Source: Natrinema salsiterrestre
Lineage (GTDB): Archaea; Halobacteriota; Halobacteria; Halobacteriales; Natrialbaceae
Direction of reading: 5' to 3'
Length of the DNA stretch: 64,000 nucleotides
Assembly: GCF_029502005.1 (NCBI RefSeq)
Contig: NZ_JAMQOT010000002.1
Coordinates: 62,001-126,000 of the forward strand
Positions 11,780-42,949 of the stretch are shown here, in pieces. Under the pieces are notes generated by a model, which saw nothing but the letters and a program-made list of their open reading frames with translations, ran no database searches and was not told the origin of the DNA. The translations under genes were made by a program, and so were the position numbers. Numbering within the stretch: the stretch's first letter is position 1; each line of letters opens with the position of its first letter.

Positions 11780-11939
11780 TCGGCTCGAGTCCGCCACCGA
11801 GATCTTGCGCTCGTGGAGTCGTGGGCGATGCTCGGTACTCGGGCGCTCGCGCTGTGACTGAATAACCGCCGCGCAAGCGACCCGGATCGGTATCGGCGGA
11901 ATCGAACCGCTTACCCGCCGCCCGCAGCTACCGACCCGT

Positions 11940-12929: not shown

Positions 12930-13699
12930 GTCGGATGGGGCGCGTTCGCGCCGAGACCAGCGCCGGCTGGCGGTCGTTCGTCCGCCGCCGGACGGCGGTC
13001 TTCTTCACCTTCTTCTTCCCGGTGATCCTGATCGTCATCTTCGGCGCGCTGATCCGCACCGATCCCGCGGGCGGCGGCCTGTTCACCGAGCCCGCGGCGT
13101 TCTACGTGCCGGGCTACCTCGCCGTCGTCGTCCTCTTCACGCCGCTGTCGCGGATGGGCAGCGAGGTCGCGCGCCACCGCGAGGGGAGCCGCTTCGAGAA
13201 GCTCGCGACGACGCCGCTGACCCGCGGCGAGTGGTTGCTCGCCCAGACGGTCGTCAACGCGGCGATCATCGGGCTCGCCAGCCTGCTCATCCTCGGACTC
13301 GTCATACTGCTGACCGGCGCCGAGATCGTCTTCTCGCCGCTGCTCGTGCCGTACGTCCTCGTCGGCGTCGTCTGCTTTTGCGGCGTCGGCGCGATGCTCG
13401 GCAGCTACACCGACTCGCAGGACGGCGCGGTCGCCGCCAGCAACGGGATCGGGCTCCCCTTGCTCTTCCTCTCGGAGACCTTCGTCTCCCTCGAGCAGCT
13501 TCCCGGCTGGTTCGAGCCGCTCGTGAACCTCTCGCCGCTGACGTACTTCGCGCGCGGCGTGCGGGCCGCGACCTACTCGGGGTCGGAGACGCCTGCGGTG
13601 GCCGGCGTCGACCCCGCGCTCGCGAACCTCGCGATTCTCGCCGTCCTCGCGGTCGTCGCGTTCGCGCTGGGCGCGCGGTCGATCCCGCAGACGGACTGA
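12926..13699 (+). CDS. ABC-2 type transporter permease
   Basis: The 257-residue, GTG-initiated protein has about six hydrophobic helices, a first helix rich in Phe (VFFTFFFPVIL), and the ABC-2 segment NLSPLTYFARGVRAATY near residue 205. The GTG overlaps the TGA of the ATPase gene, so the two subunits are made together. The pair should form an exporter in the cytoplasmic membrane; export of a hydrophobic compound is the family norm. Confidence 0.9.
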   Translation: MSRMGRVRAETSAGWRSFVRRRTAVFFTFFFPVILIVIFGALIRTDPAGGGLFTEPAAFYVPGYLAVVVLFTPLSRMGSEVARHREGSRFEKLATTPLTRGEWLLAQTVVNAAIIGLASLLILGLVILLTGAEIVFSPLLVPYVLVGVVCFCGVGAMLGSYTDSQDGAVAASNGIGLPLLFLSETFVSLEQLPGWFEPLVNLSPLTYFARGVRAATYSGSETPAVAGVDPALANLAILAVLAVVAFALGARSIPQTD

Positions 13700-13774
13700 C
13701 GGGATCGATCGGAGAGCGCTCGCCCGCGAGAACGAACCGATTTACGCCCGGCACTCGAATCGTCGCCAATCAGT

Positions 13775-15145: not shown

Positions 15146-15242
15146 CGGGTTCGGCTCGGTACCGTCGCTCCCGACGCGACAGCCGGCGGGTTTTAGGGAG
15201 GTATAGCGAGTACCCAACGAGCGTGATTGTCACCGCGACTCA

Positions 15243-15566
15243 GTGTCCGACGACGAGGGTCGCTCGAGCATGATCGGGACGAGCGAGACCCGCGAAATCG
15301 TCGACTGGCGGAAGACGACCGAGGACGGGGAGACGGTGTACGAAATCGAGTACAGCGAACCCGTACCGGAACCGACGGGCAGATCGAAGACGCTGTTCGG
15401 CGCGAGCAGCGGCGGGACGGTTCCGGCCGGCGAGCAGTACTTCGAGCTGCCGGACGGCGAGCGGATCCCCGCGTCGGAAGCGGTGTTCGACGCCGAGGGA
15501 ACGACGCTGCGAGTGCGCCGCCGGTCGTCGCTGGCGGCTCGGCTCCGGCGATACCTGCCGTGGTGA
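15243..15566 (+). CDS. Hypothetical protein (107 aa)
   Basis: A GTG-started frame with halophilic composition: acidic N-terminal half (DWRKTTEDGETVYEIEY), a central loop with GASSGGTVPAGEQYF, then FELPDGERIPASEAVFD, and a basic tail ending in ARLRRYLPW. A TATA-like GGTTTTAGG at about 15190 is upstream. An in-frame ATG ten codons in is an alternative start. The family is not recognised; the basic, aromatic C-terminus could contact membrane or nucleic acid. Confidence 0.65.
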   Translation: MSDDEGRSSMIGTSETREIVDWRKTTEDGETVYEIEYSEPVPEPTGRSKTLFGASSGGTVPAGEQYFELPDGERIPASEAVFDAEGTTLRVRRRSSLAARLRRYLPW

Positions 15567-15586
15567 CGTGGCTACTGTTCACCCAC

Positions 15587-16111
15587 TCACTCGAGAACGT
15601 CCCGGAGAACTGCGCCGAAGCCAGCCGCGCCGATACAGATCGCGAGGATGCCGCCGACGCCGGTCAGTGCGAGCGCGCCGCTCAAGGCGGCGGCGACCAG
15701 CAGACGTTTGAACCACTCGTCGTCGTTGCGCCCGACGAGTCGGTCGGCGATCGCGAGGTACGCGATCGCAGCACCGACCGCCCAGATCAGATACGCGGCC
15801 AGGGCGAGCGGAATTGCGACGATGGCCCCGATGATGGTGACGAACAGGAGCACGGTCACCAGCACGATCGCTATCAGCGAGACGATCCCGTAGGCGAAGG
15901 TCCCCACGGGATCCTCGAGCACGTTCCCCATCATCCGGTCGGTGTACTCGGGACGGATCGCGATCAGGATCGCGCCGACGACCAGCGTGGTCAGAAAAGC
16001 ACTGATCGCGCCGCCGAGGAGCCCGCCGGTCGCTCCGATATCGACCTCGACGCCGGGATCCGCCTGAGCGATTACCGCGACTGCGAGACTCGCGTCCGTG
16101 AACCCGATCAT
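15587..16111 (-). CDS. Integral membrane protein (174 aa)
   Basis: After a short N-terminal segment the protein has four hydrophobic stretches, rich in Ile/Val/Ala: about 28-48, 70-98, 98-118 and 138-165. The pattern with FAYGIVSLIAIVLVTVLLF and VTIIGAIVAIPLALAAY resembles the membrane part of polymer-forming cytoskeletal (bactofilin-associated) proteins found in haloarchaea. That is a composition-level similarity only. It is transcribed toward the 107-aa gene and away from the zinc-ribbon gene. Confidence 0.7.
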   Translation of the reverse strand: MIGFTDASLAVAVIAQADPGVEVDIGATGGLLGGAISAFLTTLVVGAILIAIRPEYTDRMMGNVLEDPVGTFAYGIVSLIAIVLVTVLLFVTIIGAIVAIPLALAAYLIWAVGAAIAYLAIADRLVGRNDDEWFKRLLVAAALSGALALTGVGGILAICIGAAGFGAVLRDVLE

Positions 16112-16205
16112 ATTCCCTGTATTTCAGTCGCAGATATAAACTGCAGTGGTGGCGATTCCCCGCCTTCGCTGGTAGCCTTTTGTCGGCTCGAGCCCTACCA
16201 TCCCC

Positions 16206-16655
16206 ATGCGCAGCAAACGCGTACAGCGGGAGGTGGACGAACTCGTCGCGCAGGGGTGGACGATCGAGGAGGAGACGCCGGATCGGGTCGTGATGGTCGA
16301 TCGGGAGTTCGGCTCGATCCTCTCTCACGTCCTGGTCGCGCTCCTCACGTTCTGGTTCACGATGGGAGTCGGGAACCTCGTCTGGGGCGCGTACAATTAC
16401 GTCAGCAAGTCCCGACGCCGGGTTCTCTGGGACGACGGTACCAGCTGTCCGTCCTGTGGTGTGGACGTTCCGCCCTCGGCAGACTACTGCCCGGCCTGCG
16501 GCGACGACCTCGAGTCGGTCACCGACCCGAACGGCGGGATCGCCTGTCCGGAGTGTGACGCGGTCGCCGCCGAGGGATCGCGGTTCTGCCCGGCCTGCGG
16601 GACGAAACTCGCCGCCACGTTCGGTGGATCCGCCGGGAACCGAACTGATACGTAG
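16206..16655 (+). CDS. Membrane-linked double zinc-ribbon protein
   Basis: The 149-residue protein has a basic N-terminus, one hydrophobic segment (about 38-62, VLVALLTFWFTMGVGNLVWG) and two zinc ribbons. The first is CPSCG...YCPACG and the second CPECD...FCPACG, giving eight cysteines. The ribbons sit in the cytoplasm or at the membrane face and probably mediate protein or nucleic acid contact. A TATA-like CCTTTTGT at about 16176 lies 27 bases from the ATG. surE begins 27 bases after the stop, so the two may be co-transcribed. Confidence 0.75.
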   Translation: MRSKRVQREVDELVAQGWTIEEETPDRVVMVDREFGSILSHVLVALLTFWFTMGVGNLVWGAYNYVSKSRRRVLWDDGTSCPSCGVDVPPSADYCPACGDDLESVTDPNGGIACPECDAVAAEGSRFCPACGTKLAATFGGSAGNRTDT

Positions 16656-16681
16656 CTCGCTCGCTACGCAACGACCAGGCA

Positions 16682-17521
16682 ATGGTACTGGACTCGGACC
16701 CCCACATTCTGCTGACGAACGACGACGGGATCGACGCGCCCGGCATCCGCGGACTGTACGACGCGCTGTCGACGGTCGGCACGGTCACCGTCGTCGCGCC
16801 CGACCGAAATCGGAGCGCGGTCGGCCGATCGCTCTCCTACGGGCGGACGAAATCCTCGGACGACGACGACCTCTCCGTGGATCTGGCCGACAGCGCCTTC
16901 ACCGTCCCGGTCCCCCACACCGACCACGAACTTGGCTACGCCGTCGACGGCACCCCCTGCGACTGCGCCATCGTCGGCACGAAGGGCCTCGAGCCGTCGC
17001 CCGACATCGTGGTCTCGGGCTGTAACTCCGGGGCGAACCTCGGCGCGTACGTCTTCTCCCGGTCCGGGACCGTCAGCGCCGCGATGGAGGCGGCGTTCCT
17101 CGGGACGCCGTCGATCGCCGTCTCGCTGGACACGCTGGGCTACGACGAGGAGCTCGAGCCGGCGGACTTCGAGCGAGCGGGCGAGATCACGGCAGCCCTC
17201 GTCGACGGGGTCCCCGGAACCGGGCTGTTCGATCGCGTCGATTATCTGAACGTCAACGTCCCCCGTCCCGATCGCGAACCCAACGGCGTCGCACTGACGC
17301 GACCGACCGAAATCTACGAGATGGACGCGACGTTCGAGGACGGCGCGTTTCAGCTGACCAACCGACTCTGGCAGCAGATGGCCAACCGAGACATTCCCGA
17401 CGGGGAGGACACCGACCGTCACGCCGTCCTCGAGGAAGAAGTGTCGATCTCTCCGCTCCGGGTGCCCTACGAGATCGTCGACACGGAACCGGTTCGGCAC
17501 ATCCTCGACGATATCGTGTAA
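16682..17521 (+). CDS. surE: 5'/3'-nucleotidase SurE
   Basis: The 279-residue product shows the SurE metal-site signature LLTNDDGIDAPG (Asp14, Asp15), the conserved Ser45 in APDRNRSAVG, and the asparagine in SGCNSGANLG. These proteins are divalent-metal phosphatases that dephosphorylate nucleoside monophosphates. The SRSGTVSAAMEAAFLG segment is the family core. The initiator is ATG 16682, following the zinc-ribbon gene on the same strand. The pilus ATPase gene starts 80 bases downstream behind its own promoter-like sequence. Confidence 0.94.
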   Translation: MVLDSDPHILLTNDDGIDAPGIRGLYDALSTVGTVTVVAPDRNRSAVGRSLSYGRTKSSDDDDLSVDLADSAFTVPVPHTDHELGYAVDGTPCDCAIVGTKGLEPSPDIVVSGCNSGANLGAYVFSRSGTVSAAMEAAFLGTPSIAVSLDTLGYDEELEPADFERAGEITAALVDGVPGTGLFDRVDYLNVNVPRPDREPNGVALTRPTEIYEMDATFEDGAFQLTNRLWQQMANRDIPDGEDTDRHAVLEEEVSISPLRVPYEIVDTEPVRHILDDIV

Positions 17522-17600
17522 CACAACCTATTAATTTCCCGTCACCTCAGAAGCCAGTAACATTTAGACGGTCGGCTCACAACGAGTATCCGACCTATCG

Positions 17601-19442
17601 ATGTCGGACGGCAACCTTCCGGGCGAGAACGACGACAATCGGGGCGAAGTTCCCTCGAGTCCACCGAACGGAGTCGGTCCGGGGGTGGACTCCGAGGGCG
17701 ACGCCGATCAGGTCGTCGCTCGGACTGCCGACGGGACGACGGAGCCAACCGATACCGAACCGGAGCCGACGTCGGCCATCGCTCCGTCGGACTCGCAATC
17801 GACGGACGCGATCAGAAACGCCGTCCTCGCGGACGTGAAGGCCTCCTTCGACGACCAGTCGGACGACGCGTTTCCCGGGCGTCCGTCCGACGCGTTCATC
17901 GAGGAGGAGTTCTTCGATTTCGGCTATCTCGACGAGTACGAGGAGGTCGAGCGGTACTGGGTGAATCGGCCGTACGCGTACGTGACGGTGCTGTACGACG
18001 AGGCGACCAACACCAACCGGTATCACGTCGTCGAGCCCGACCTCGACGAGTTCGAGGAGTACGTCCGCGAGGACCTGATCCGGTCGCTCCGGAGCGATCT
18101 GATGTACAAGGAGTTCGACGGCGAGATCGACAGGGGGGCCGCCTTCGACGAGGAAGTCCCGCGCGTCATGCGCGAGCACGCCGCGACCGTCGGTGACGGC
18201 TCCCTGCAGCAGCTCCTCTACTATCTCCGGCGGGACTTCGTGAGCTACGGGAAGATCGACCCCATCATGCGCGACCGCGCCGTCGAGGACATCTCGTGCG
18301 ACGGCGCCGCCAGACCCGTCTTCGTCTACCACCACGGCTACCGCGACCTCCGGACGAACCTCTCCTTCAGCGACGAGCGACTGAGCGCGTACGTCGTCCG
18401 ACTCGCCCAGCGAGCCGGCAAACACCTCTCCGTCGCCGATCCGCTGGTGGACGCCTCGTTGCCCGACGGCTCCCGGGTCCAGCTCACTCTCGGCGGCGAG
18501 GTGACGACCGGCGGCGCGAACTTCACCGTCCGGAAGTTCGCCGAGGTGCCGTTCACCCCGGTCGACCTCATCAACTGGGGCACGTTCTCGCTCGAGCAGA
18601 TGGCCTATCTCTGGCTGGCCGTCGAGAACAACGCCTCGCTCATGTTCGCCGGCGGCACCGGCTCGGGGAAGACGACCAGTCTCAACGCGGTATCGATGTT
18701 CGTCCCGCCGGAGAGCAAGGTGGTGTCGATCGAGGACACGCCCGAGCTCACGCTCCCCCACGACAACTGGATCCAGAGCGTCACTCGGCGGGGCGTCACC
18801 GCCGGCGGGCGCGGCTCGGTCGGGATGTTCGATCTGCTCCAGGCCGCCCTTCGCCAGCGCCCGGAGTACCTCGTCATCGGGGAGATCCGCACCGAAAGCG
18901 ACGTCGCGCTCACGTTCTTCCAGTCGATCGCGACCGGCCATACGGCGTACACGACGTTCCACGCCGACTCCGTTCGCGGGCTGTTGAGCCGGCTGCAAAA
19001 CGAGCCGCTGAACGTTCCGGCGGGAATGATCGGCAACCTCGACATCGTCTCGATCCAGCAACAGACCACCCAGAACGGCAAGCGCGTCCGGCGGAACAAA
19101 CGGCTGGTGGAGTTCGGTCACGACGACGGCAACGGCGACGAGATCGACCCCCACGAGGTGTTCCGGTACGAACCCACCGCCGATCGGTTCGAACAGACGA
19201 CGGGGTCGCGAGTCCTCGGGAACATCGCCGACGAACGGGGCTGGACGCCCGGCCGCATCGAGCGCGAACTCGAGGACCGCGAAGCCGTCCTCGAGTACCT
19301 GCTCGAGGAGGGAATCACCGAATACGAGCGGGTCGCACGCGTCGTCCAGGGGTTCATCCGCGATCCGGACTACGTCCTCGAGGAGGTCCGCGCGGGGGAA
19401 CTCGATCCCGATCAGATCGCAGTGACGGAGGCTGACGACTGA
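17601..19442 (+). CDS. Type II/IV secretion system ATPase (archaeal pilus, PilB/FlaI-like)
   Basis: The 613-residue protein has an acidic, low-complexity N-terminal region (about 1-100), an N-terminal alpha/beta domain, and a VirB11/FlaI-type ATPase core. Walker A is GGTGSGKTT at 351-359, Walker B is YLVIGEIR at 423-430, and the His box is TGHTAYTTFHAD at 445-456. It should power assembly of type IV pili in the membrane. The TadC-type platform gene follows with only the bases before its GTG between them, and a pilin-like gene follows that, making an ATPase-platform-pilin operon. A TATA-like ACATTTAG lies at about 17559. Confidence 0.9.
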   Translation: MSDGNLPGENDDNRGEVPSSPPNGVGPGVDSEGDADQVVARTADGTTEPTDTEPEPTSAIAPSDSQSTDAIRNAVLADVKASFDDQSDDAFPGRPSDAFIEEEFFDFGYLDEYEEVERYWVNRPYAYVTVLYDEATNTNRYHVVEPDLDEFEEYVREDLIRSLRSDLMYKEFDGEIDRGAAFDEEVPRVMREHAATVGDGSLQQLLYYLRRDFVSYGKIDPIMRDRAVEDISCDGAARPVFVYHHGYRDLRTNLSFSDERLSAYVVRLAQRAGKHLSVADPLVDASLPDGSRVQLTLGGEVTTGGANFTVRKFAEVPFTPVDLINWGTFSLEQMAYLWLAVENNASLMFAGGTGSGKTTSLNAVSMFVPPESKVVSIEDTPELTLPHDNWIQSVTRRGVTAGGRGSVGMFDLLQAALRQRPEYLVIGEIRTESDVALTFFQSIATGHTAYTTFHADSVRGLLSRLQNEPLNVPAGMIGNLDIVSIQQQTTQNGKRVRRNKRLVEFGHDDGNGDEIDPHEVFRYEPTADRFEQTTGSRVLGNIADERGWTPGRIERELEDREAVLEYLLEEGITEYERVARVVQGFIRDPDYVLEEVRAGELDPDQIAVTEADD

Positions 19443-31127: not shown

Positions 31128-31634
31128 CTACCTGTCCTCCAGAACGATCACGTCGACGTCGCCGGGGCCGTGCACGCCGTGGACGAGGTCGCCCATGTCC
31201 GCCGTCGCGCTCCGGCCCGTTGCGAAGACGACGCTGTCTCGGCCCGCGTCGAAGCCCTCGGCGAGACGGGTGAATCCGGCACTGAGGTCCGGAACGACGT
31301 CGCTCTCGGCGACGACCGCGACGTGTCGGTCCGGGTAGAGGCTGATCGGTTCCGCGCCGTCGGCGGTCGACTCGACGGCGACCGTTCCGTACTCCGCGAT
31401 CGCGAAGGACACCGGCGTGACGCCCGTCCGAGCCGCCTCGAGCTCGGCCGTCGTCGGCTCGGTCGTCACGTCGTCGGGAAGCGACACTCCCTCGAAGGGA
31501 AGCGACGCGCCGACGGTTGGTTCCTCGACGATCGTTTCGATCCGCTCGCTCGCCTCGGCGGCCGCGACGCGCTCGAACCCCACCTCGAGTCCCTCGAGCG
31601 CGCGTTCGAACCGGCAGAGAGTGTCGACTGTCAT
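31128..31634 (-). CDS. lutC: LUD domain protein, LutC-like
   Basis: The 168-residue protein has the LUD segment VSFAIAEYGTVAVESTAD, followed by SLYPDRHVAVVAESDVVPD and the C-terminal motif VVFATGRSATADM...HGVHGPGDVDV. This is the LutC pattern of lactate-utilisation systems. It is translated just before the LutB-LutA fusion and leads that operon. A lone GATTTAATC at about 31693-31703 may be its TATA box. Confidence 0.85.
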   Translation of the reverse strand: MTVDTLCRFERALEGLEVGFERVAAAEASERIETIVEEPTVGASLPFEGVSLPDDVTTEPTTAELEAARTGVTPVSFAIAEYGTVAVESTADGAEPISLYPDRHVAVVAESDVVPDLSAGFTRLAEGFDAGRDSVVFATGRSATADMGDLVHGVHGPGDVDVIVLEDR

Positions 31635-31802
31635 CGTTTCTCACATCCGGGCGGACGGTCAAGACACTGATGGTCGGTTCGGTGTCACTTCGAGCGATTA
31701 AATCGACCCGGCGGATCGCCGTCGTTGTATTCGACCCGAAGCTATCGGATTCCATTGTGTGAGCTACTTCCAGTCGTTCGGAAAACGTGCGGTGTGGTTT
31801 CA

Positions 31803-32231
31803 ATGCCCGAAACAGAACTCGGCACCCACGAGTGGTGGGAGTCGTACAAAGAAACGGTAAACGATGATCCGGAAATGGACGTCAGAGGTCACGACGAGTT
31901 CTCCGAGAACTTCTACGTCGAGATCGGAGACGAGCGCGTCCTCCTCGAGATGGACGGCGGCGAGATCGAGGCCCTCGTCCCGAACCCGACGATGAACCAC
32001 CAGTGGTCGTTCGGCGTGGAGGGCGACCGCGAGACCTGGGAGGAGTTCGTTCGGGAGACGCCGCCCGCGTTCAACCACGAGATCATCGCGTCACATTATC
32101 GGAGCGCGGTCCGCAACGAGGACGGCCACCTGCAGTTGACCGGCGACAACAAGCGGATCTTCCAGCACCTGCGCGCGTTCCAGCGAACGCTCGATCTGAT
32201 GCGGGTCGCCCACAACGACGGAGGGAGCTGA
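31803..32231 (+). CDS. SCP2/sterol-carrier-like domain protein
   Basis: The 142-residue product has an amphipathic helical start (EWWESYKETVNDDPEM) and five alternating strands (FYVEIGDERVLLEMDGGEIEA). A tryptophan-bearing core (HQWSFGVEGDRETWEEF) precedes a C-terminal helix. This resembles SCP2-like proteins that bind acyl chains or similar ligands. Its stop is one base before the alpha/beta hydrolase start, so the pair is an operon, possibly ligand carrier plus hydrolase (inference). ATG 31803 is chosen because upstream codons read as non-coding. Confidence 0.65.
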   Translation: MPETELGTHEWWESYKETVNDDPEMDVRGHDEFSENFYVEIGDERVLLEMDGGEIEALVPNPTMNHQWSFGVEGDRETWEEFVRETPPAFNHEIIASHYRSAVRNEDGHLQLTGDNKRIFQHLRAFQRTLDLMRVAHNDGGS

Positions 32232-32232
32232 G

Positions 32233-33198
32233 ATGGCCGAATCCTACCAGCCGGGCGACATCGAACCGATCAGCGGGTCGTACGTCCACGTCGAAGTAGA
32301 GGGGGTCGACCACCGAATCTATTTCGAGGAGAACGGCCCCGAAGACGGGATCCCCCTGCTCTGCCAGCACACCGCCGGCAACAACTGTCAGGAGTGGCGT
32401 CACCTCCTGACCGACGAGGAGATCACCGAGGAGTTCCGCGTCATCGCCCACGATCTGCCCTATCACGGGAAGTCGGTCCCCCCGACCACGCAGGAGTGGT
32501 GGACCGAGGATTACACGATGACGGCCGAGAAGTTCACCGAGACGCTCGTCAACCTCGCCGACGCCCTCGAGCTCGAGGACCCGATCTACATGGGCTCGAG
32601 CATGGGCGGGAACATCGCGCTCGAGCTGGCCGACTGGTATCCCGAGCGATTTCGGGCGCTGATCGGCCTCGAGTGCGGCGCGTACAGCCCCGGGTTCTAC
32701 ATCGACTGGCTCGACCACCCCGAAGTGAACACGACGGAGGTCAACGCGTACGCCTGTTGGGGGCTGATGGCACCGCAGAGTCCCGAACAGACGCGTCGCG
32801 AGACGATGTACCTCTACGAGCAGGGCGCGACGGGCGTCTTCAAGGGCGACCTCTACTACTACTCCGTCGACCACGACTACCGCGACAAACTGGATCAGGT
32901 CAACGCCGACGAGTGTCCCCTCTACATCGCTAACGGCGAGTACGACTACTTGACCACGCCCGAAGACGGCCGCCAAACCGCCGAGGGGATCGGCGAGGGT
33001 GCGACCGCGATCGAGTTCGCGGAGATCGGCCACTTCCCGATGAGCGAACACCCCGAGCTGTTCAACGCCTACATTCGGGAGGTCCTCGCGGCCGTGACCG
33101 GTGATCGGGAGGACGCGCTCCCGGACGTCCTCGAGCCCGACGACGTCGGTATCGAACTGCACCAGCGGGGGCCGGCGCGCGAGAAGACCGCCGAGTAA
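32233..33198 (+). CDS. Alpha/beta hydrolase
   Basis: The 321-residue product has the alpha/beta-hydrolase core. The oxyanion-hole region is around CQHTAGNN, the nucleophile is Ser123 in MGSSMGGN, the acid region is NGEYDYLTTP, and the catalytic His is in GHFPMSEHPELF. It should hydrolyse an ester, lactone or amide in the cytoplasm; the substrate is not evident. Translation begins one base after the SCP2-like gene. Confidence 0.88.
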   Translation: MAESYQPGDIEPISGSYVHVEVEGVDHRIYFEENGPEDGIPLLCQHTAGNNCQEWRHLLTDEEITEEFRVIAHDLPYHGKSVPPTTQEWWTEDYTMTAEKFTETLVNLADALELEDPIYMGSSMGGNIALELADWYPERFRALIGLECGAYSPGFYIDWLDHPEVNTTEVNAYACWGLMAPQSPEQTRRETMYLYEQGATGVFKGDLYYYSVDHDYRDKLDQVNADECPLYIANGEYDYLTTPEDGRQTAEGIGEGATAIEFAEIGHFPMSEHPELFNAYIREVLAAVTGDREDALPDVLEPDDVGIELHQRGPAREKTAE

Positions 33199-33370
33199 CT
33201 GCCGCTCACGGGAATCCCCCGGTCCGATCGAATCGAGTCCCACGTCCGTTCCGTTCTGCCGCCGACTGCACCCCGGTGACCGCTGGGGACGACGTGTCGG
33301 TCGCACCGTCACCGTTGCACCAGACACAAAGCTTATATCATGTGTATCTAGTTCTCATCCAACACGCTCC

Positions 33371-33508
33371 ATGTCAGAAACGACATCCGGACCCGACCGA
33401 TACGTCGAGCAAGAGACGGACGACGGAACCGTTCGGATCTTCGATCCCGAGAACGACGCCGCCTGGATCGAATCCGATACGACGCTTTCGATCGTCTGGC
33501 AGACCTGA
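33371..33508 (+). CDS. Acidic microprotein (45 aa), member of a paralogous pair
   Basis: The short product has an acidic start and the core TDDGTVRIFDPENDAAWIES followed by DTTLSIVWQT. The same pattern (EDGVVFYDAENPLAWVETSQ, then TLSLEE) is in the minus-strand microprotein at 50806-50991, so the frame is conserved within this window. A clear CTTATATC element at about 33330-33337 precedes the ATG. Position after the hydrolase is not informative, because it has its own promoter. Confidence 0.7.
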   Translation: MSETTSGPDRYVEQETDDGTVRIFDPENDAAWIESDTTLSIVWQT

Positions 33509-33824
33509 CCGGAACGAGGCCGGATCCCGGCGATTCGTATTCGATCGTCGTCTCGGTCACTGACTCACCGCGAACGGAGTCTCGCGGGCGTCGAGGGTGG
33601 CCCTTTCCCGGACGTCGTCTCACCGCTACTCGCGAGCGGCGGCTACCGGTAACCGCGCACTCGGCGAGTCAGTTGCGCCACTGCGAAAAATAGGGTCGAT
33701 TCGACCGGCAGTTCGACACCGATCGCGTCGGTGTGAACGATACGCGTTGTTCCGATGCGGTCCGCCGAAACGACCGTGACAGAGGGTGTGATCCCCCTCG
33801 AGCGTCAGCGTCGTTCGGTCCCGA
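33509..33824. other. Intergenic stretch, no gene seen
   Basis: No open frame here has gene-like composition, and it lies between convergent genes. It contains GC-rich direct and inverted short repeats and an A/T-rich GCGAAAAATAGG patch, but nothing interpretable. Confidence 0.5.
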
Positions 33825-36800
33825 TCAGGACGAGGCGGGCACGGGCCCCTGATCGTCTATCGGAGTCGCGTCGGTCTCGAGTCCGGCCATGTCGCTGAAG
33901 CCGGTCAGCCCGTCCCAGACGATGGGGAACTCGTCGGAGTACTCGGGCGCGTCCGACGGCGGCTCCTCGACCTCGCCGTCTTCGGACGCCTCGATGCCGA
34001 CGGTCGCGCCGTCGTATTCCGCGTCGAGCGGCTGGGTCTTCCACAGGAACACGCGTTCCTCGACGCCGGACGCTCTCGCATCGAACTCGAACGCTGCGTC
34101 CTCACCGGCACCGTCGACGGCCCGGAACTCGGCGCTGAAGGCGTCGACGGGCGTGTCGGTCTGTCCCGGCGGGACCCACGCTCGATCGACGACCAGAATG
34201 CCCGCGCTCTCGATGTCGACGACCTGCCAGCCGGGGCGGTCGATGCCCGTGAACTCGAGGGCGTCGGAATCGTAGCGCATGACGAGCGTGTACTGGCCGA
34301 CCTCGATCTCCTCGTCCGTCGCGGACTCGATGTCCGTGTCGACGGTGACCGTCTCGCCGACTGCAACGTTCTCCTCGTCGACGTCCGCGTCGACGATGAC
34401 GTCGGCGTCGGGTTCGGGTGCCGTTTCGGTGAGCGTCACGTCGACAGTCGTCGTCTCGTCGGCCTCGATCGCGACGTCCTCGCTGGCGTCCTCGTAGCCC
34501 TCGGCCGAGACGGTGAGCGTGTACTCGCCGGCCTCGAGCTCGAGGCTATAAGAGCCGTTCTCGTCGGTCGTCGTCTGCTGGTCACCGACGCTAACCGTCG
34601 CGTCGGCGATCGGCTCGCCGTCGGCGTCAGTGACGGTCCCGTCGAGCGTTCCGTCGGACGGCTCGGCGTCCAGCGTCACGTCGGCGGTCGTGGTTGCAGC
34701 GGCCTCGACCGTGACGGTCTCGCTGGCGTCCTCGTAGCCGTCAGCACTGACCGCGAGCGTGTACTCGCCGGGCTCGAGCTCGAGGCTGTAGGTGCCGTTC
34801 TCGTCGGTCGTCGTCTGCCGGTCACCGACGGTAACCGTCGCGTCAGCGATCGGTTCGCCGTCAGCGTCCGTAACGGTACCCTCGACCGTGCCTTGCGACA
34901 CGTCGTCGAGCTGGTCGGCCGCGCCGTTCAGGTTCGGCTGGACGGTGAACTCGACGAGGTCGGCCGCGTTGTGCAGCGACTCGTTGGCGAGTGCGGCGTC
35001 GTCGGAGACGTCGCCGTACTCCTCTTCGATGCGTTCGCCCTCTTCCCGAGCCTCGTCGGGCGTGGTGACGTCGTCGGAGTCGACGATCGGGGAGACGATG
35101 TCCGGGGCTCGCGCGTTGATCACCGCGACGACCGTCTCGAAGACGGTCGTCTGCCGGTCGTCGGCGTCGGCGCGCAGGCGGTCGGCTTCGGCGGACGCCT
35201 CCTCGGCGTCGCTGGCTTCGACCTCCTCGACCGATTCGACGTCGTCGAACTCCTCGTCGATCTCCGACGTCTGATTGTCGACCTTCTCGTTGAAGTCCTC
35301 GAGTTCGTCGTTCGTCTCGGCGATCTCGTTTTCGTTGACGCGCTCGACGGCCTCCGAGATCGGATCGGATTCCTCGCTCTGGAGGGCGACGTCGAGCGTC
35401 GTGGTCGCGTCGACGTCGATCGTAACGTTCTGGCTGGCGTCCTCGTAGCCCTCGGCCGAGACGGTGACCGCGTAGTCACCGGCCTCGAGGTCGAGCTCGT
35501 AGGTGCCGTTGTCGTCGGTCGTGGTCTGCCGGTCACCGGCGGCGACGGTCGCGTTGGCGATCGCGTCGCCGTCCTCGTCAGTAACGGTGCCCTCGAGCGT
35601 ACCCTCGGTGGGTTCGACGTCCAGCGTCACGTCGGCGGTCGTGGTCGCGTCGGCCTCGACCGTGACGTTCTGGCTGGCGTCCTCGTAGCCCTCGGCCGAG
35701 ACGGCGAGCGTGTACTCACCGGGCTCGAGCTCGAGGGCGTAGGTACCGTTCTCGCCGGTCGTCACCGTCTCGTCACCGGCCGTGACGGTCGCGTCGGCGA
35801 CCGGTTCACCGTCGGCGTCAGTGACGGTTCCTTCGACGGCTCCGGTTGCCTCTTCGAGGGTGACGTCAGCGGTCGTGGTCGTTTCGACCTCGATCGAGAC
35901 GTTCTGACTGGCGTCCTCGTACCCCTCGGCGCTAACCGCGAGCGCGTACTCGCCGGCCTCGAGCTCGAGGCTGTAGGTGCCGTTGTCGTCGGTCGTCGTC
36001 TGCTGGTCACTGACAGCGACGGTCGCGTCGGCGATCGGCTCGCCTTCGGTATCACTGACCGTGCCTTCGAGCGTTCCGTCAGTCGGCACGGGCTCCAGCG
36101 TCACGTCGGCGGTCCTGGTCGCGTCGGCTTCGACCGAGACGGTCCGGCTGGCGTCTTCGTAGCCCTCGGCCGAGACGGCGAGCGTGTACTCACCGGGCTC
36201 GAGATCGAGGCTATAAGAGCCGTTCTCGTCGGTCGTCGTCTCCTGATCACCGACGGTGACGGTCGCATCGGCGATCGCGTCACCGTCCGTGTCGGTGACA
36301 GTACCTTCGAGAGTGCCATCGACCGCTTCCAGCGTCACGTCGGCGGTCGTGGTCGCGTCGGCATCGACCGTCACGTCTTCGCTGACAGTCTCGTAGCCAT
36401 CGGCACTGACATCGAGCGTGTACTCACCTGGCTCGAGTTCGAGCGTGTAGGTACCGTTCTCGTCGGTCGTCACCGTTTCGTCACCGGCGGTGACGGTCGC
36501 GTCGGCGATCGGCTCGTCGTCGGCATCGGTAACGGTCCCTTCGACGGATCCGGTACGTTCCTCGAGAGTGACGTCGGCAGTCGTGGTCGATTCGACCTCG
36601 ACCGTCACGTCTTCGCTGGCGTCTTCGTAGCCCTCAGCGCTGACCGCGAGGGTGTACTCGCCGGCCTCGAGCTCGAGGCTGTAGGTGCCGTTGTCATCGG
36701 TCGTCGTCTGCTGGTCACCGACGGTAACGGTCGCGCCGGCGATCGGCTCGCCGTCCGTGTCAGTAACGGTGCCCTCGAGGGTCCCGTCAGTCGGCACGGG

Positions 36801-39527
36801 CTCCAGCGTGACGTCGGCGGTCGCGGTTGCACCGGCCTCGACCGTTACGGTTTCACTCGCATCCACGTAGCCCTCGGCCGAGACGGCGAGCGTGTACTCG
36901 CCGGGCTCGAGCTCGAGGCTATAGGTGCCGTTCTCGTCGGTCGTCGTCTCCTGATCACCGACGGTGACGCTCGCGCCGGCGATCGGCTCGTCGTCGGCGT
37001 CGGTGACGGTCCCTTCGACGGATCCGGCACGTTCCTCGACCGTCACGTCAGCGGTCGTGGTCGTTTCGACCTCGACCGTGACGGTCCGGCTGGCGTCCTC
37101 GTAGCCATCGGCCGAGACGGCGAGCGAGTACTCGCCGGCCTCGAGTTCGAGGCTGTAGGTACCGTTCTCGTCGGTCGTCGTCTGCTGGTCGCCGACGGTT
37201 ACCGTCGCGTCGGCGATCGGTTCGCCGTCCGTGTCGGTGACCGTTCCTTCGAGGGTGCCGTCAGTCGGCACGGGCTCCAGTGTCACGTCGGCGGTCGTGG
37301 TTGCACCGGCCTCGACCGCGACCTCTTCGCTCGCGTCCTGATAGCCCTCGGCGCTGATTTCGAGCGTGTATTCACCCGCCTCGAGATCGACGGCGTAGGT
37401 GCCGTCCTCGGCGGTCGTCACTGTTTCGTTGCCGACGGTGACGGTGGCTCCGGAGATCGGGTCACCGTCAGCATCGGTGACGGTCCCCTCGACCGTGCCG
37501 GTAGCCGGCTCCTCACTTCCGAGTGCATCGAGCTTGTCGGCACCGCCGTTCAGCGGCGGCCTGAGATCGTTTTCGATCAAGTCGGCCGCGTCTCGCAGCG
37601 ATTCGGCCGCCTGCGTCGCGAGGCCGCCCTCCTCCTCGAGGCGGTCGGCGACTTCGCGTGCGTCAGCGGGCGACTGGATCTCCGAGCGGTTGACGTCGGC
37701 GACCCCGCCTTCGTTGATCACGGTCACGATCTTGTCGAAGATCGCCGTCTCTCGGGTATCGAGGTCGGTTCGGAGGCGATCGGCTTCGTCCTGAGCCTCC
37801 GGGACGCTCTGGGCTTCGACCGCGTCGACGGAACTGACGTTCTCGACGTCGACGCTGAGGAGAGACGCTTTCTCCTGCAGCTGACTGTTGAACGACGTGA
37901 GCGCATCGTTCGCGGCCGGGATTTCGTTGTTGTTGACGCTCTCGACGACTTCACCGACCTCGTCCGAGCCGCCGTCGTCCTCCTGCTGGAGGGTAACGTC
38001 GACTGTCGTCGTTGCGTCCGCCTCGACCGAGACGTTCTGACTGGCGTCCTGGTACCCCTCGGCCGAGACGGCGAGCGTGTATTCGCCGGGCTCGAACTCG
38101 AGCGTGTAGGTACCGCTCTCGTCAGTGGTCGTCTGCTGATCGCCGGCAGTAACGGTCGCACCGGCAACTGCAGCACCGCTTTCGTCAGTGACAGTGCCCT
38201 CGACCGTTCCGGTGGTCGGCTCTTCGCCCTCGAGTGCGTCGAGCTCGTCGGCACCGCCGTTCAGCGGCGGCCTGAGATCGTTTTCGATCAGGTCGGCCGC
38301 GTCACGAAGCGACTCGGCCGCCTGCGTCGCGAGGCCGCCTTCCTCCTCGAGACGGTCGGCGACTTCGCGTGCGTCAGCGGGCGACTGGATCTCCGAGCGG
38401 TTGACGTCGGCGACCCCGCCTTCGTTGATCACGGTCACGATCTTGTCGAAGATCGCCGTCTCTCGGGCGTCGAGATCGGTCCGGAGACGGTCAGCCTCGT
38501 CCTGAGCCTCCGGAACCGTCGTCGCTTCGACCGCGTCGACGGAGCTAACGTTCTCGACGTCGACGCTGAGGAGAGACGCTTTCTCCTGCAGCTGGCTGTT
38601 GAACGACGTGAGCCCATCGTTCGCGGCCGGGATCTCGTTGGTATTGACCTCGTCGACGACCTGACCGACCTCGTCCGAGCCGCCGTCATCCGCTTGCTGA
38701 AGGGTGACGTCGGTAGTCGCGGTTGCGTCGGCTTCGACCGAAACGTTCTGGCTGGCGTCCTGGTAGCCATCGGCCGAGACGGCGAGCGTGTACTCGCCCG
38801 GCTCGAGCTCGAGACCGTAGGAGCCGTTCTCGTCGGTCGTCGTCTCCTGATCGCCGGCGGTAACGGTCGCATTGGCGATCGGTTCGCCGTCAGCATCCGT
38901 GACGGTCCCCTCGACCGCACCGGTGGCCGGTTGGACCGAATCCAGCCGGTCGGCAGCGCCATTGAGGGGCGGCCTGAGATCGTTTTCGATCAAGTCGGCC
39001 GCGTCTCGCAGCGATTCGGCCGCCTGCGTCGCGAGGCCGCCTTCCTCCTCGAGGCGGTCGGCGATCTCGCGTGCGTCAGCGGGCGACTGGATTTCCGAGC
39101 GGTTGACGTCGGCGACCCCGCCTTCGTTGATCACGGTCACGATCTTGTCGAAGATCGCCGTCTCTCGGGTATCGAGGTCGGTTCGGAGGCGATCGGCCTC
39201 GCTCTGGGCCTCCGGAACCGTCGTGGCCTCGACCGCGTCGACGGAACTGACGTTCTCGACGTCGACGCTGAGGAGAGACGCTTTCTCCTGCAGCTGGCTG
39301 TTGAACGACGTGATCGCGTCGTTCGCGGTCGGAATCTCGTCGTTGTTGACGGTCTCGACGACCTGATTCAGATCGTCGTTCTGTGCGTCGATACGTTCCG
39401 TGGTCGGTTCCCCATCACTCATTCCTGCGACTCCGAACGGTGCAGCAACGAGTGACAGAACGACCAGGGCAGCGAGTGTCGTTGCCCGTATCTGTCTCGT
39501 TCTCATGACTCTCACAGCGTCTGGCAT
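33825..39527 (-). CDS. Giant secreted modular protein: helical modules plus carboxypeptidase-regulatory-like domains
   Basis: The product is about 1,900 residues. A Sec signal (TTLAALVVLSLVAAPFGVAG) precedes three near-identical helical modules of about 145 residues, each beginning near NNDEIP and ending in NDLRPPLNG. Each is followed by one beta domain. Nine more beta domains, a fourth divergent helical module (about 1384-1544), two more beta domains and a cohesin-like C-terminal domain (VGQYTLVMRYDSDALEFTG) follow. The 13 beta domains share GTVEGTVTDADGEPIADATV and GEYTLAVSAEGYEDAS, a carboxypeptidase-regulatory/TTR-like fold. No C-terminal membrane anchor or sorting signal is seen, so it is probably secreted or S-layer associated. 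A TATA box at about 39575 favours ATG 39527; ATG 39506 is an alternative. The role is unknown. Confidence 0.85.
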   Translation of the reverse strand: MPDAVRVMRTRQIRATTLAALVVLSLVAAPFGVAGMSDGEPTTERIDAQNDDLNQVVETVNNDEIPTANDAITSFNSQLQEKASLLSVDVENVSSVDAVEATTVPEAQSEADRLRTDLDTRETAIFDKIVTVINEGGVADVNRSEIQSPADAREIADRLEEEGGLATQAAESLRDAADLIENDLRPPLNGAADRLDSVQPATGAVEGTVTDADGEPIANATVTAGDQETTTDENGSYGLELEPGEYTLAVSADGYQDASQNVSVEADATATTDVTLQQADDGGSDEVGQVVDEVNTNEIPAANDGLTSFNSQLQEKASLLSVDVENVSSVDAVEATTVPEAQDEADRLRTDLDARETAIFDKIVTVINEGGVADVNRSEIQSPADAREVADRLEEEGGLATQAAESLRDAADLIENDLRPPLNGGADELDALEGEEPTTGTVEGTVTDESGAAVAGATVTAGDQQTTTDESGTYTLEFEPGEYTLAVSAEGYQDASQNVSVEADATTTVDVTLQQEDDGGSDEVGEVVESVNNNEIPAANDALTSFNSQLQEKASLLSVDVENVSSVDAVEAQSVPEAQDEADRLRTDLDTRETAIFDKIVTVINEGGVADVNRSEIQSPADAREVADRLEEEGGLATQAAESLRDAADLIENDLRPPLNGGADKLDALGSEEPATGTVEGTVTDADGDPISGATVTVGNETVTTAEDGTYAVDLEAGEYTLEISAEGYQDASEEVAVEAGATTTADVTLEPVPTDGTLEGTVTDTDGEPIADATVTVGDQQTTTDENGTYSLELEAGEYSLAVSADGYEDASRTVTVEVETTTTADVTVEERAGSVEGTVTDADDEPIAGASVTVGDQETTTDENGTYSLELEPGEYTLAVSAEGYVDASETVTVEAGATATADVTLEPVPTDGTLEGTVTDTDGEPIAGATVTVGDQQTTTDDNGTYSLELEAGEYTLAVSAEGYEDASEDVTVEVESTTTADVTLEERTGSVEGTVTDADDEPIADATVTAGDETVTTDENGTYTLELEPGEYTLDVSADGYETVSEDVTVDADATTTADVTLEAVDGTLEGTVTDTDGDAIADATVTVGDQETTTDENGSYSLDLEPGEYTLAVSAEGYEDASRTVSVEADATRTADVTLEPVPTDGTLEGTVSDTEGEPIADATVAVSDQQTTTDDNGTYSLELEAGEYALAVSAEGYEDASQNVSIEVETTTTADVTLEEATGAVEGTVTDADGEPVADATVTAGDETVTTGENGTYALELEPGEYTLAVSAEGYEDASQNVTVEADATTTADVTLDVEPTEGTLEGTVTDEDGDAIANATVAAGDRQTTTDDNGTYELDLEAGDYAVTVSAEGYEDASQNVTIDVDATTTLDVALQSEESDPISEAVERVNENEIAETNDELEDFNEKVDNQTSEIDEEFDDVESVEEVEASDAEEASAEADRLRADADDRQTTVFETVVAVINARAPDIVSPIVDSDDVTTPDEAREEGERIEEEYGDVSDDAALANESLHNAADLVEFTVQPNLNGAADQLDDVSQGTVEGTVTDADGEPIADATVTVGDRQTTTDENGTYSLELEPGEYTLAVSADGYEDASETVTVEAAATTTADVTLDAEPSDGTLDGTVTDADGEPIADATVSVGDQQTTTDENGSYSLELEAGEYTLTVSAEGYEDASEDVAIEADETTTVDVTLTETAPEPDADVIVDADVDEENVAVGETVTVDTDIESATDEEIEVGQYTLVMRYDSDALEFTGIDRPGWQVVDIESAGILVVDRAWVPPGQTDTPVDAFSAEFRAVDGAGEDAAFEFDARASGVEERVFLWKTQPLDAEYDGATVGIEASEDGEVEEPPSDAPEYSDEFPIVWDGLTGFSDMAGLETDATPIDDQGPVPASS
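37535..39380 (-). repeat. Three tandem 700-bp gene-internal repeats
   Basis: Near-identical DNA recurs at 37555, 38266 and 38968 (shared GGCGGCCTGAGATCGTTTTC), spaced 711 and 702 bases. Each unit encodes one helical module plus one beta domain. The high nucleotide identity points to recent duplication or gene conversion within the giant gene. Confidence 0.85.
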
Positions 39528-39904
39528 GTCAACAACAGCCCGAGAGTATTTTTTCCCGGATATGACTGTAACTTTTAAACATGTATATAACTGGGAGCCG
39601 CGTTGCTTCCGGGAAACACAGGTTCCGACGTCGTGGCTCTTCGCACGGGATGCAGCGAGACCGCGTCTCGTACGACCGATCCGACGCGTTCGCACTCGTC
39701 GCCAGCACGGGTCACGGATGTGGCTCGATGCCCCGATTTACGATCGATCGCGCGAAAATAGGGCCGAAAACAGTCGCCTAACGATCGGTGTTGCGTGCCA
39801 GTTGTCGTCTGAACTGCGCGTCACCGGCCGAGTGACGACCTGTCGACGCCGATAACGAGATCAGCATCCTCGGAGACCGACGATCGCCGCTACCTCTCGA
39901 CGGA
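39528..39904 (-). promoter_or_regulatory. Upstream region of the giant gene
   Basis: On the minus strand GTTTAAAAGTT (39571-39580) is a strong TATA box about 48 bases before ATG 39527, giving a leader of roughly 20 bases. AT-rich TTATATAC lies just upstream. The frame stays open to 39695, but that sequence is intergenic in character. The rest up to 39904 shows no gene. Confidence 0.65.
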
Positions 39905-40807
39905 CTACTGCATCGCCTTGACCCAGCCGGGCGTCGACGCCATTCCCTCCTTGTCTTCCCAGCCGTTTTCGCGGAGGTACTCGGGAAGCCGCGTGAACTC
40001 GAATCCGAATCGGTCCTCGAGTCCGCCGATGTCGGCGTCGTAGCCGACCTCGTTGAACCACTCGCACATGACGGTGAACTCCTCGCCGAAGGAGTCGTAG
40101 GCGTCCTCGATGGGGACGTGAACCGGGTCGACCTCTCGGCCAGTGACCGTCGAGAGCACCTCGGCGGTTTCAGTGAGAGTCAGTTCGTCCCCCGCGAGTT
40201 CGACGCGCTCGCCGACGAACTCGTCGGGGCGTTCGAACGCGACCGCCGCAGCGCGACCGACGTCGTCGACGTCGATCATCTGGAGGGAGACGCCTTCCTC
40301 GAGTGGCAGCGCGATCTGTCCGTCCTCGACGACGTCCTCGGCGAACGCCTCGAGGTTCTGGAAGAAGAACACGGGCTGGAGGACGGTCAGCGGCAGGTCG
40401 AGGTCCTGCGCGTGCCGGTCGATCTCCCAGGCCGAATCGAAATGAGGGATACCCGTGTCGCGCTCGTGGCTGCCGACGCCGCTCAGCACGAACTGATCGA
40501 CGCCTTCGTCGGCGGCGACCTCGGCGACGTTCTTCCCCTGCTGAACCTGCGCGTCGTACCCCTGCGTCCAGAAGTTCGTGACGGCGAAGACCGCGTCGAC
40601 GTCCGCGACGTGGGGTGCGAGCGACTCCTTGTCGTTCATATCGCCCTCGACCATCGTCACGCCCTGCTCGGTCAACTCCCGGGCGCGGTCGCCGGAGGCG
40701 TCACGGGTCAGTCCGTATACGTCGAAATCGGCGTCGGACTCGAGCAAGTGAGCGACGACCGCCCCGCCCTGGTTGCCGGTCGCACCGGTGACGAGCACGC
40801 TCGTCAT
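39905..40807 (-). CDS. NmrA-type NAD(P)-binding Rossmann protein
   Basis: The 300-residue protein begins with a Rossmann dinucleotide motif VTGATGNQGGAVVAHLL, then AVFAVTNFWTQGY and FVLSGVGSHERDTG. The downstream FDSAWEIDRHAQDLDLPLTV segment is typical of the NmrA/HSCARG family. These are redox-sensing regulators or atypical short-chain dehydrogenases; most lack the catalytic Tyr-Lys pair, and none is evident here. Regulatory NAD(P)(H) sensing is the likeliest role. Confidence 0.88.
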   Translation of the reverse strand: MTSVLVTGATGNQGGAVVAHLLESDADFDVYGLTRDASGDRARELTEQGVTMVEGDMNDKESLAPHVADVDAVFAVTNFWTQGYDAQVQQGKNVAEVAADEGVDQFVLSGVGSHERDTGIPHFDSAWEIDRHAQDLDLPLTVLQPVFFFQNLEAFAEDVVEDGQIALPLEEGVSLQMIDVDDVGRAAAVAFERPDEFVGERVELAGDELTLTETAEVLSTVTGREVDPVHVPIEDAYDSFGEEFTVMCEWFNEVGYDADIGGLEDRFGFEFTRLPEYLRENGWEDKEGMASTPGWVKAMQ

Positions 40808-41092
40808 ATCAGTACACCTCCTCAGTACGCGGGTTGTCGGCGGTATGCGATACGATTGCTGTCGGAGCGACGGTGTCGATCGGGTTCATCACGTATCGGG
40901 AGACGAGCCGAACGCAAATATAGTATCTTGGACAGGAAGGATACCAGCTAACGTCGATGTCACCGTCAGGATTTGCGATACGATCGGAGGGCAGGACACT
41001 CGCACTGTCCACTCCCAGATAGGATGGCGAGAGCAGCGACGCGTTCGTACCCGGTGTGTGGAACTTTCCGGATAGCCCTCGAACGATCCCGT

Positions 41093-41533
41093 ATGCGCTA
41101 CTACGACGATATAGCGATCGGTGCGGAGGCGACCTTCGGGGAGCGAACGCTGACGGAGGACGAAATCGTGTCCTTCGCCGAAAAGTGGGATCCACAGCGG
41201 TTCCACGTCGATCCCGAGGCCGCAGCGGAGTCGGTCCACGGCGGTCTCATCGCCAGCGGCTTCCACACGGTCGCGGTCGCGATGCGCGTCTGGGTCGACG
41301 AATACCTGCGCGACGTCGCCAACATGGGCGCGCGGTACCTCTCCGAACTCGCCTGGCGCGAACCGGTTCGTCCCGGCGACACTCTCGTCATCAGCGGCGA
41401 AGTACTGGACAAAACGGCCCCCGAACACACCGACGGCCACGGCTACCTCGACTACGAACTCTCGGCCAGCGTCGACGGCGAGCCGGTGATGACGATGGTA
41501 ACCGATCTCGTCGTCGAGCGCCGCAGCGACTGA
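41093..41533 (+). CDS. MaoC-like hot-dog dehydratase
   Basis: The 146-residue protein is a single hot-dog domain with the MaoC signature FAEKWDPQRFHVDPEAA and SVHGGLIASGFHT (hydratase motif Asp/His), then PGDTLVISGEVL. It should hydrate or dehydrate 2-enoyl/3-hydroxyacyl-CoA, linking it to fatty acid or PHA metabolism. ATG 41093 gives the usual N-terminus (YYDDIAIGAEATFGERTLTE). Confidence 0.9.
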   Translation: MRYYDDIAIGAEATFGERTLTEDEIVSFAEKWDPQRFHVDPEAAAESVHGGLIASGFHTVAVAMRVWVDEYLRDVANMGARYLSELAWREPVRPGDTLVISGEVLDKTAPEHTDGHGYLDYELSASVDGEPVMTMVTDLVVERRSD

Positions 41534-41635
41534 TCGCTCGAGGAACGACGAGCGCCGATTCGAGTAACGTCCGGACAGTACAGCGGCTAGCCACTGACAG
41601 ACACGGTCTCGAAAAAACGGTAGCTGATCGTCGAG

Positions 41636-42133
41636 TCACTCCGATACTTCCAATTCGCCGTAATCGAACTGCTCGCCCATCTCCGAGAGGGCCTCGAGTT
41701 CGTCCTGTTCCTCCCGCAACGTCTCCTCGAGCGTGTCCGCGGCGTCGTCCATCCCGAGCTGGTCCGCCATCGGGATGAGGTTCCCGTAGACGGCGATCTC
41801 GTAGTGCTCGGACTTCTGTCCGGCGGCGATGTTGAACCGATCGAGGGCCTCGTCGCTCGGGTCCTTGTCCACGAACTCCTCGTGGGCCTCGATCATCCCC
41901 TCGACCACCGGGTCTTCCTCACCCTCCGGAGAGGCGTCGACGTGTTCGAACACCGTCTCGAGGCGGTCGATCTGATTCTTGGTTTCCTCGCGGTGCTCGG
42001 CGAACCCCGATTTGAGTTCCTCGCTCGTGGAGGTCCCCTCGAGTTCCTCGAGCGCGTCGACGAGGCGCTGTTCGGTGTAGTACGCGTGCTTCAGCCCGTC
42101 TACGAAGAGGTCTTCGGTCGAATCGATGGTCAT
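41636..42133 (-). CDS. YciE/DUF892 ferritin-like protein
   Basis: The 165-residue product is a four-helix bundle. It begins with STEDLFVDGLKHAYYTEQRL, the DUF892 hallmark, and has KSGFAEHREETKNQIDRLETVF and SEHYEIAVYGNLIPMADQLG, with helix-placed Glu/His residues suitable for metal binding. Family members are stress-induced, ferritin-like proteins. ATG 42133 is chosen over an upstream frame whose start has non-coding composition; a TTATCC element is about 35 bases upstream. Confidence 0.88.
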   Translation of the reverse strand: MTIDSTEDLFVDGLKHAYYTEQRLVDALEELEGTSTSEELKSGFAEHREETKNQIDRLETVFEHVDASPEGEEDPVVEGMIEAHEEFVDKDPSDEALDRFNIAAGQKSEHYEIAVYGNLIPMADQLGMDDAADTLEETLREEQDELEALSEMGEQFDYGELEVSE

Positions 42134-42239
42134 AAGCGTTCGTCCGAGTGGACAGCACTGATTTGGATAAGGAGACGGCTTGCAGTTGAGATTACCGCGT
42201 TCGACCCCCACAGACCGGGAAATAGTCCTTGTATCGGAG

Positions 42240-42794
42240 CTAGTCGGATTCGCAAATCGTCAAGAAGTTCTCGAAGATCTCGTCGCCCTCCTCGGTGTGG
42301 GCGACCTCGGGGTGCCACTGGACGCCGTAGAGGTCCCGATCGGTGTCGCTCATCGCCTCGACGTCGCAGACGTCGCTTTTCGCGGTCAGTTCGAATCCGT
42401 CGGGTAGTTCTTTCACCTCGTCGGCGTGGCTCGCCCAGACGCGGGTGTCGGGATGGAGCGACCCGGTGAGGGGATCGTCGTCGTCGACGATGTCGACGGT
42501 GACATCGGCGTAGCCGCCGTACTCGCCGCCGCCGACGCGGCCGCCCAGTTCGTCGGCGATCAGTTGCATGCCGAGACAGATCCCCAGCACCGGCACGTCC
42601 GCCTGGAGATAGTCGGCCGAACGCCCGATCCGGTCCATGTCCGGGCCGCCCGAGAGGACGACGCCGTCGGCGTCGACCTCTTCCGGCGGTGTGTCGTTGT
42701 CGATCAGCTCCGTATCGACGCCGAGGTCGCGAAGCGCCCGGCGCTCGAGGTGGGTGAACTGTCCGTGATTGTCCACCACGACGATCTTCGTCAT
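42240..42794 (-). CDS. guaAA: GMP synthase glutaminase subunit A
   Basis: The 184-residue protein is a stand-alone class I glutamine amidotransferase: nucleophile Cys73 in GICLGMQLIA, and His161 and Glu163 in VQWHPEVAHTE. SGGPDMDRIGR follows the N-terminal domain. In archaea the amidotransferase (GuaAa) and ATP-pyrophosphatase (GuaAb) subunits of GMP synthase are separate genes; only the former is here. It supplies ammonia for XMP to GMP conversion. Confidence 0.92.
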   Translation of the reverse strand: MTKIVVVDNHGQFTHLERRALRDLGVDTELIDNDTPPEEVDADGVVLSGGPDMDRIGRSADYLQADVPVLGICLGMQLIADELGGRVGGGEYGGYADVTVDIVDDDDPLTGSLHPDTRVWASHADEVKELPDGFELTAKSDVCDVEAMSDTDRDLYGVQWHPEVAHTEEGDEIFENFLTICESD

Positions 42795-42949
42795 TGAGTG
42801 CTCGTAGCGGGTCACCCGGTAAAAGCGGTCCGAAAACCGATTTCGATTTCGGTGTCGACGACGGTCGGACCTGACGGCCGCGTATAACTACTGCACGGCT
42901 TCAGGTCCGAGCTTTTCACCCTCCGCTCCAAGCCGACCGTAGAACCAGT

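Follow-up and report, generated by a model that had tools for sequence, protein, structure and literature searches.

The window, that is, the whole 64,000-nucleotide stretch of Natrinema salsiterrestre DNA that was analyzed, contained a minus-strand gene for a giant repeat protein in which a helical module (HM) alternates with TTR-like domains ahead of a cohesin-like end. We propose, with a probability of about 0.5, that the product is an exported, very acidic, probably N-glycosylated and rod-like protein located at the cell surface or in the extracellular matrix. More tentatively, and at somewhat less than even odds, HM may found an undescribed, Natrialbaceae-specific extracellular helical interaction domain, of which G045, from another genus, would have a circularly permuted form and whose repeat number in Natrinema would have been changed by recombination, so that a surface or matrix protein is tuned in length or valency.

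The gene and its domain plan

The minus-strand frame 33825-39695 was open throughout. The protein encoded from the GTG at 39515 comprised 1,896 amino acids, in agreement with the roughly 1,900 residues of the original prediction, with a pI of 4.05, a net charge of -414 and no cysteine. The gene had a GC3 of 0.84; this value and the protein composition are what a genuine secreted protein of haloarchaea typically shows. The likely start codon was the GTG at 39515 or the ATG at 39506, because both were conserved across an alignment of seven orthologues; the ATG at 39527, from which the protein had previously been read, was not conserved in this alignment and was abandoned as the start. A 1,520-amino-acid plus-strand ORF at 34893-39455 was most simply a high-GC shadow of the repeat-protein gene. 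The protein contained 27 N-glycosylation sequons, compared with 11.3 ± 3.1 in the shuffled protein, an excess that was inflated by the repeats. The features were as follows.

33825..39515, minus strand: gene for the exported repeat protein (open frame, codon and protein composition, dN and dS against an orthologue)
39513..39579, minus strand: conserved upstream region with a TATA-like TTTAAAA, then a CAGTYATATCCGGGAAAAAATAC-like stretch and GTTGTTGA (upstream regions of the seven orthologues, aligned)
39423..39506, minus strand: predicted signal peptide MRTRQIRATTLAALVVLSLVAAPFGVAG with an approximate cleavage site (hydropathy of 2.24; conserved across the seven orthologues)
38931..39374, minus strand: HM1 (profile, 209.8 bits; AlphaFold2 model)
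38697..38918, minus strand: TTR-like domain 1 (PF13620 and own profile)
38229..38672, minus strand: HM2, forming with the neighbouring TTR-like domain a 711-bp unit that is extra relative to the closest orthologue (profiles, orthologue alignment)
37986..38207, minus strand: TTR-like domain 2 (PF13620 and own profile)
37518..37961, minus strand: HM3 (profiles)
35379..37496, minus strand: TTR-like domains 3-11, in tandem at 234/240-bp spacing (PF13620, own profile, DNA repeats, orthologue alignment)
34893..35366, minus strand: HM4, a divergent copy (profiles; modelled jointly with TTR-like domains 12-13)
34431..34889, minus strand: TTR-like domains 12-13 (PF13620, own profile; model matches the carboxypeptidase N TTR domain)
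33990..34409, minus strand: cohesin-like domain (sub-threshold PF00963 match; two orthologues above cut-off)
33828..33989, minus strand: C-terminal tail with no membrane segment (hydropathy)

Our own profiles counted four HMs, 13 TTR-like domains (T) and one cohesin-like domain, the same numbers as were originally predicted, with a module of about 148 residues. Their order was signal peptide, HM, T, HM, T, HM, nine T, HM, two T and cohesin-like domain. At the DNA level, a 300-nucleotide stretch recurred 13 times at spacings of 234, 240 and 711 bp, and a second set recurred three times at 711 and 702 bp with 93% identity, far beyond chance. The earlier description of three modules near-identical in DNA at a period of 702-711 bp was right as to the spacing, but HM1-3 were only 88-92% identical over 444 bp, with pairwise dS values of 0.20-0.34 over the same length. 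HM4 showed approximately 44% protein identity with HM1-3.

The TTR-like assignment was strong. Pfam CarboxypepD_reg (PF13620) matched 13 stretches with a total of 827 bits (E = 1e-255), and a single domain alone scored 81.2 bits against a gathering cut-off of 32.3. Residues 159-235 of the TTR model superimposed on the TTR domain of carboxypeptidase N with a Z score of 14.8 and an rmsd of 1.1 over 77 aligned residues, by which the predicted TTR-like beta-sandwich fold was confirmed. Since lysine made up only 0.5% of the protein, pilin-type isopeptide bonds are unlikely in these domains.

The helical module as a sequence family and a fold

HM had been described as belonging to no recognizable family. 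HMM searches of Pfam and NCBIfam, together with searches of PHROGs and PDB sequences, bore this out, giving no match that was above cut-off or consistent along the module. A PHROGs hit, to phrog_17352 of unknown function (best E = 5e-4), covered only about 30 residues and was rejected as too short; PDB sequence matches to coronavirus spike helices and apolipophorin (E ≥ 0.029) looked like coiled-coil similarity and were likewise set aside. The open-licence literature contained no description of HM or of the window protein. HM is nevertheless a real family, as its occurrence in 23 Natrialbaceae genomes (below) shows, and one that is undescribed in the libraries searched.

The original prediction had proposed modelling one module. 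AlphaFold2, supplied with ten HM copies from the window and Natrinema ejinorense, modelled HM1 as a helical bundle with a mean pLDDT of 96.1 and helices at residues 2-34, 53-84, 98-111 and 114-145. A Foldseek search with this model returned no match with E < 0.001. The best fold match, to talin R13 (Z = 8.4, rmsd 2.8, 111 aligned residues), was within the usual background for helical bundles, and ferritin- and talin-like matches were rejected as such background. The comparisons with Foldseek and VIA-align thus suggest a generic bundle shape that points to no function.

Invariant Asn and other polar residues (N11, N19, N84, R107 and D136 in the numbering of alignment A1) were present in HM. These residues would suit a ligand-binding domain for a solute or polysaccharide, in which case the giant would be a high-valency binding protein rather than an adhesin; however, HM matched no known binding family and the conserved residues may simply cap helices, and we regard this explanation as very unlikely. 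In the preferred reading, of a rod-like surface or matrix protein, the HMs would be the contact-making parts, a role proposed because they are multiplied, homogenized and lineage-specific units. The TTR-like domains would be spacers holding the HMs apart as a stalk.

Distribution of HM and attachment to the cell

At E = 1e-4, the HM profile detected members in 23 of 125 Natrialbaceae genomes, representing seven of 29 genera. Scans of 392 genomes from the order and 393 from the phylum gave no confident HM outside the family, only two marginal partial matches. Weak matches (E = 0.01-0.1) in proteins of other Halobacteriales were for the most part incomplete, in many cases confined to some 45 residues of the final helix, and we treated them as chance helix similarity. 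No HM relatives were found in phage, plasmid and viral-contig collections, and PADLOC reported no defence-system match. A single-protein scan of genome contigs gave no relative; the contig scan with a closer alignment found one named species, N. ejinorense.

In most relatives HM followed the signal peptide, often beside one TTR domain, and by our own profiles a TTR domain followed most full-length HMs. A common form outside Natrinema consisted of a signal, one HM, one TTR and an anchor. One relative matched PGF-CTERM with 34.0 bits (cut-off 24.5), another combined a halo surface-glycoprotein signal with a BGTF surface domain, and further relatives ended in membrane segments or began with a Tat-like signal and a lipobox-like Cys (the lipobox assigned by eye). 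HM is therefore an extracellular module, since its relatives pair it with signal peptides, PGF-CTERM, membrane segments or lipobox-like Cys.

Some relatives had further peculiarities. In three Natrialbaceae genomes of two non-Natrinema genera (L043 7057-9842, L082 5392-8157 and L080 7714-9618), a secreted short-HM protein was encoded directly upstream of an HM lipoprotein-like gene; the short-HM secreted proteins had Asp-rich linkers or tails, and several ended in a C-terminal Cys. In G045, two nearby HM-TTR-cohesin-like proteins (L044 6885-9026 and 10665-13133, plus strand) each had a second HM that was apparently circularly permuted. In profile coordinates, its parts ran in the order 56-153 then 2-60 in one protein and 38-152 then 13-59 in the other, with three to five residues between them and a weak second part in one protein (E = 0.0095), an arrangement consistent with a circular permutation (H2-H3-H4-H1).

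The window protein had been predicted to be secreted and to have no anchor, and both points held: it had an N-terminal hydrophobic signal, conserved in all seven orthologues, and no second segment above the hydropathy threshold. Neither a hydrophobic C-terminal segment nor an NCBIfam match, including PGF-CTERM (TIGR04126), was found in it, whereas HM-bearing relatives do have anchors. Since the protein itself lacks a membrane anchor, we propose that it would be attached through its cohesin-like end to a cellular or matrix partner. The missing anchor is just as compatible with free release of the protein. The giant might be a released extracellular matrix or decoy protein without cell attachment, whose HMs associate mutually into a network. 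The Natrinema giants as a group have no anchor by hydropathy, and the adjoining mini-HM and HM lipoprotein-like genes in three genomes of two other genera would fit HM-HM contact; the cohesin-like end, by suggesting a partner, speaks against an unattached network, and we consider such a protein unlikely.

The cohesin-like end and dockerins

The C-terminal domain scored 19.3 bits against Cohesin PF00963, below the cut-off of 24.1, whereas the orthologues in G028 and G021 scored 27.5 and 25.3 bits and a protein of another genus also passed the cut-off. Given these scores, the term cohesin-like is fair, but cohesin is not proven. The region was modelled at a pLDDT of about 30 from an alignment of two rows only.

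Such an end raises a further explanation, in which the giant would be an accessory scaffold of a haloarchaeal cellulosome-like system, its cohesin-like end binding dockerin-bearing secreted glycoside hydrolases and its HM-TTR array tethering them to the cell or substrate. Several such hydrolases in the genome lend this some support: a cluster encodes Tat-type secreted GH5 enzymes that carry dockerins at the C-terminus, and a GH43 encoded elsewhere also bears one. Dockerins were also found in four of the five Natrinema genomes with a cohesin-ended giant compared with seven of 24 others (one-sided Fisher test, about 0.05, ignoring relatedness). However, the domain in the window is a sub-threshold match, two of the seven orthologues lack it, G021 has a cohesin-bearing giant yet no dockerin match at E = 0.001, and the dockerin cluster encodes its own candidate cohesin-like proteins. 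We consider this scaffold role quite unlikely and retain the rod-like surface or matrix protein as the preferred reading.

The cluster itself (L104, G000:C24:148501-168500; 3274-18275, minus strand) looks cellulosome-like. Its products include Tat-type secreted enzymes of the GH5 cellulase family and a beta-helix/ricin-lectin protein, with dockerins at their C-termini. Adjoining them are an 837-amino-acid protein with fn3, PKD, sub-threshold CBM5/12 and two cohesin-resembling segments (by eye; no Pfam call) and a 238-amino-acid protein with one cohesin-resembling segment (by eye) and a PGF-CTERM-like end below cut-off. The secreted GH43 (L107, G000:C23:351501-358000; 3183-4469, minus strand) has the same type of dockerin tail. 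Separately, a 269-amino-acid cohesin-domain protein with a hydrophobic C-terminal segment is encoded at 2516-3325, minus strand, of L105 (G000:C20:456001-462000). Each of the 29 Natrinema genomes had a cohesin match over cut-off, usually in a protein near this size, and the L105 protein may be a conserved cohesin-bearing surface protein.

Locus and copy number of the units

The gene lay between an alpha/beta hydrolase gene (32233-33198) and an NmrA-like gene (39905-40807) in a conserved neighbourhood. The outer flanking genes were found in 29 and 28 of the 29 Natrinema genomes, whereas the giant gene was present in seven and missing from 22; in G011 and G016, the hydrolase and NmrA-like genes were separated by approximately 430 bp in which no gene was called. 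Since the flanks are nearly universal and absence of the gene is clean, the giant gene is accessory within a largely stable neighbourhood, and it is dispensable given the number of genomes that lack it. These comparisons indicate that the gene is gained or lost repeatedly. At 31128-42815 of the window and at the syntenic loci L108-L121, the interval from a LUD-domain gene to a glutamine amidotransferase gene ranged in length between about 0.1 and 10.6 kb in the Natrinema genomes, with differing cargo (in G006 and G002, for example, a TetR-like gene next to one for a 952-amino-acid protein), forming a small spot of variable content.

Comparison with the closest orthologue, in G010, gave a dN of 0.050 and a dS of 0.214 (dN/dS about 0.23), showing that the gene is under purifying selection. 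The alignment contained a single gap of 237 residues, corresponding to 711 bp or one HM-TTR unit, and was otherwise gap-free. Loss of this unit in G010 is as plausible as its gain in the window species, because the dS among HM1-3 is similar to that between the species. In the seven Natrinema orthologues, compared between species with one genome per species, our profiles counted 4, 3, 4, 2, 2, 6 and 6 HMs and, in the same order, 13, 12, 7, 2, 2, 14 and 12 TTR domains. The suggestion that length can vary by unit duplication was thus supported as regards unit number, which ranged from two to six HMs between species and differed by exactly one 711-bp unit between the closest relatives.

HM copies within a species group were more alike than copies from distant groups, as concerted evolution of tandem units would give. 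HM4 formed a separate class in three species, including G010 and G013 (81-95% identical). In the proposed rod-like protein, a change in unit number would alter reach and valency.

Comparison with known systems

Little of the surface and biofilm matrix of haloarchaea has been mapped, and large exported proteins of this sort are known only by generic TTR or Ig-type domains. HM is a defined and confidently modelled module that occurs once in anchored relatives and in varying number in the giants, and offers a small soluble construct to study; one locus provides a natural copy-number series (2, 3, 4 and 6) for asking whether length or valency matters.

The window protein shares with the PF13620 arrays of prokaryotic surface proteins its 13 domains far above cut-off, and its TTR fold also matches the Sulfolobus SlaB S-layer (stalk) protein, CnaB pilins and SdrD B repeats, but its array is broken up by a helical module without a family match. 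One HM-bearing relative carries the anchor of the PGF-CTERM, archaeosortase-anchored haloarchaeal surface proteins; the window protein differs from these in lacking the motif and any C-terminal membrane segment. According to PMC9012536, citing Peer et al. 2009, multi-cohesin scaffoldins were not found in archaea with cohesin and dockerin domains; the window protein resembles the archaeal cohesin/dockerin proteins in its cohesin-like domain and the dockerins of its genome, but is a giant HM-TTR protein whose cohesin-like domain is single and divergent. The adhesin-like proteins of gut methanogens are likewise large, repetitive and exported, some with carboxypeptidase regulatory-like domains, and their adhesion is inferred (PMC11532034). 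In the excerpted text of that paper, Big-type and right-handed beta-helix domains dominate, with membrane anchors, and no HM-like module is described. Giant TTR-repeat surface proteins are already known. The HM module and the way it alternates with TTR-like domains in varying copy number are undescribed as far as the libraries and open papers go; the architecture is ordinary, and the novelty is at the level of the domain.
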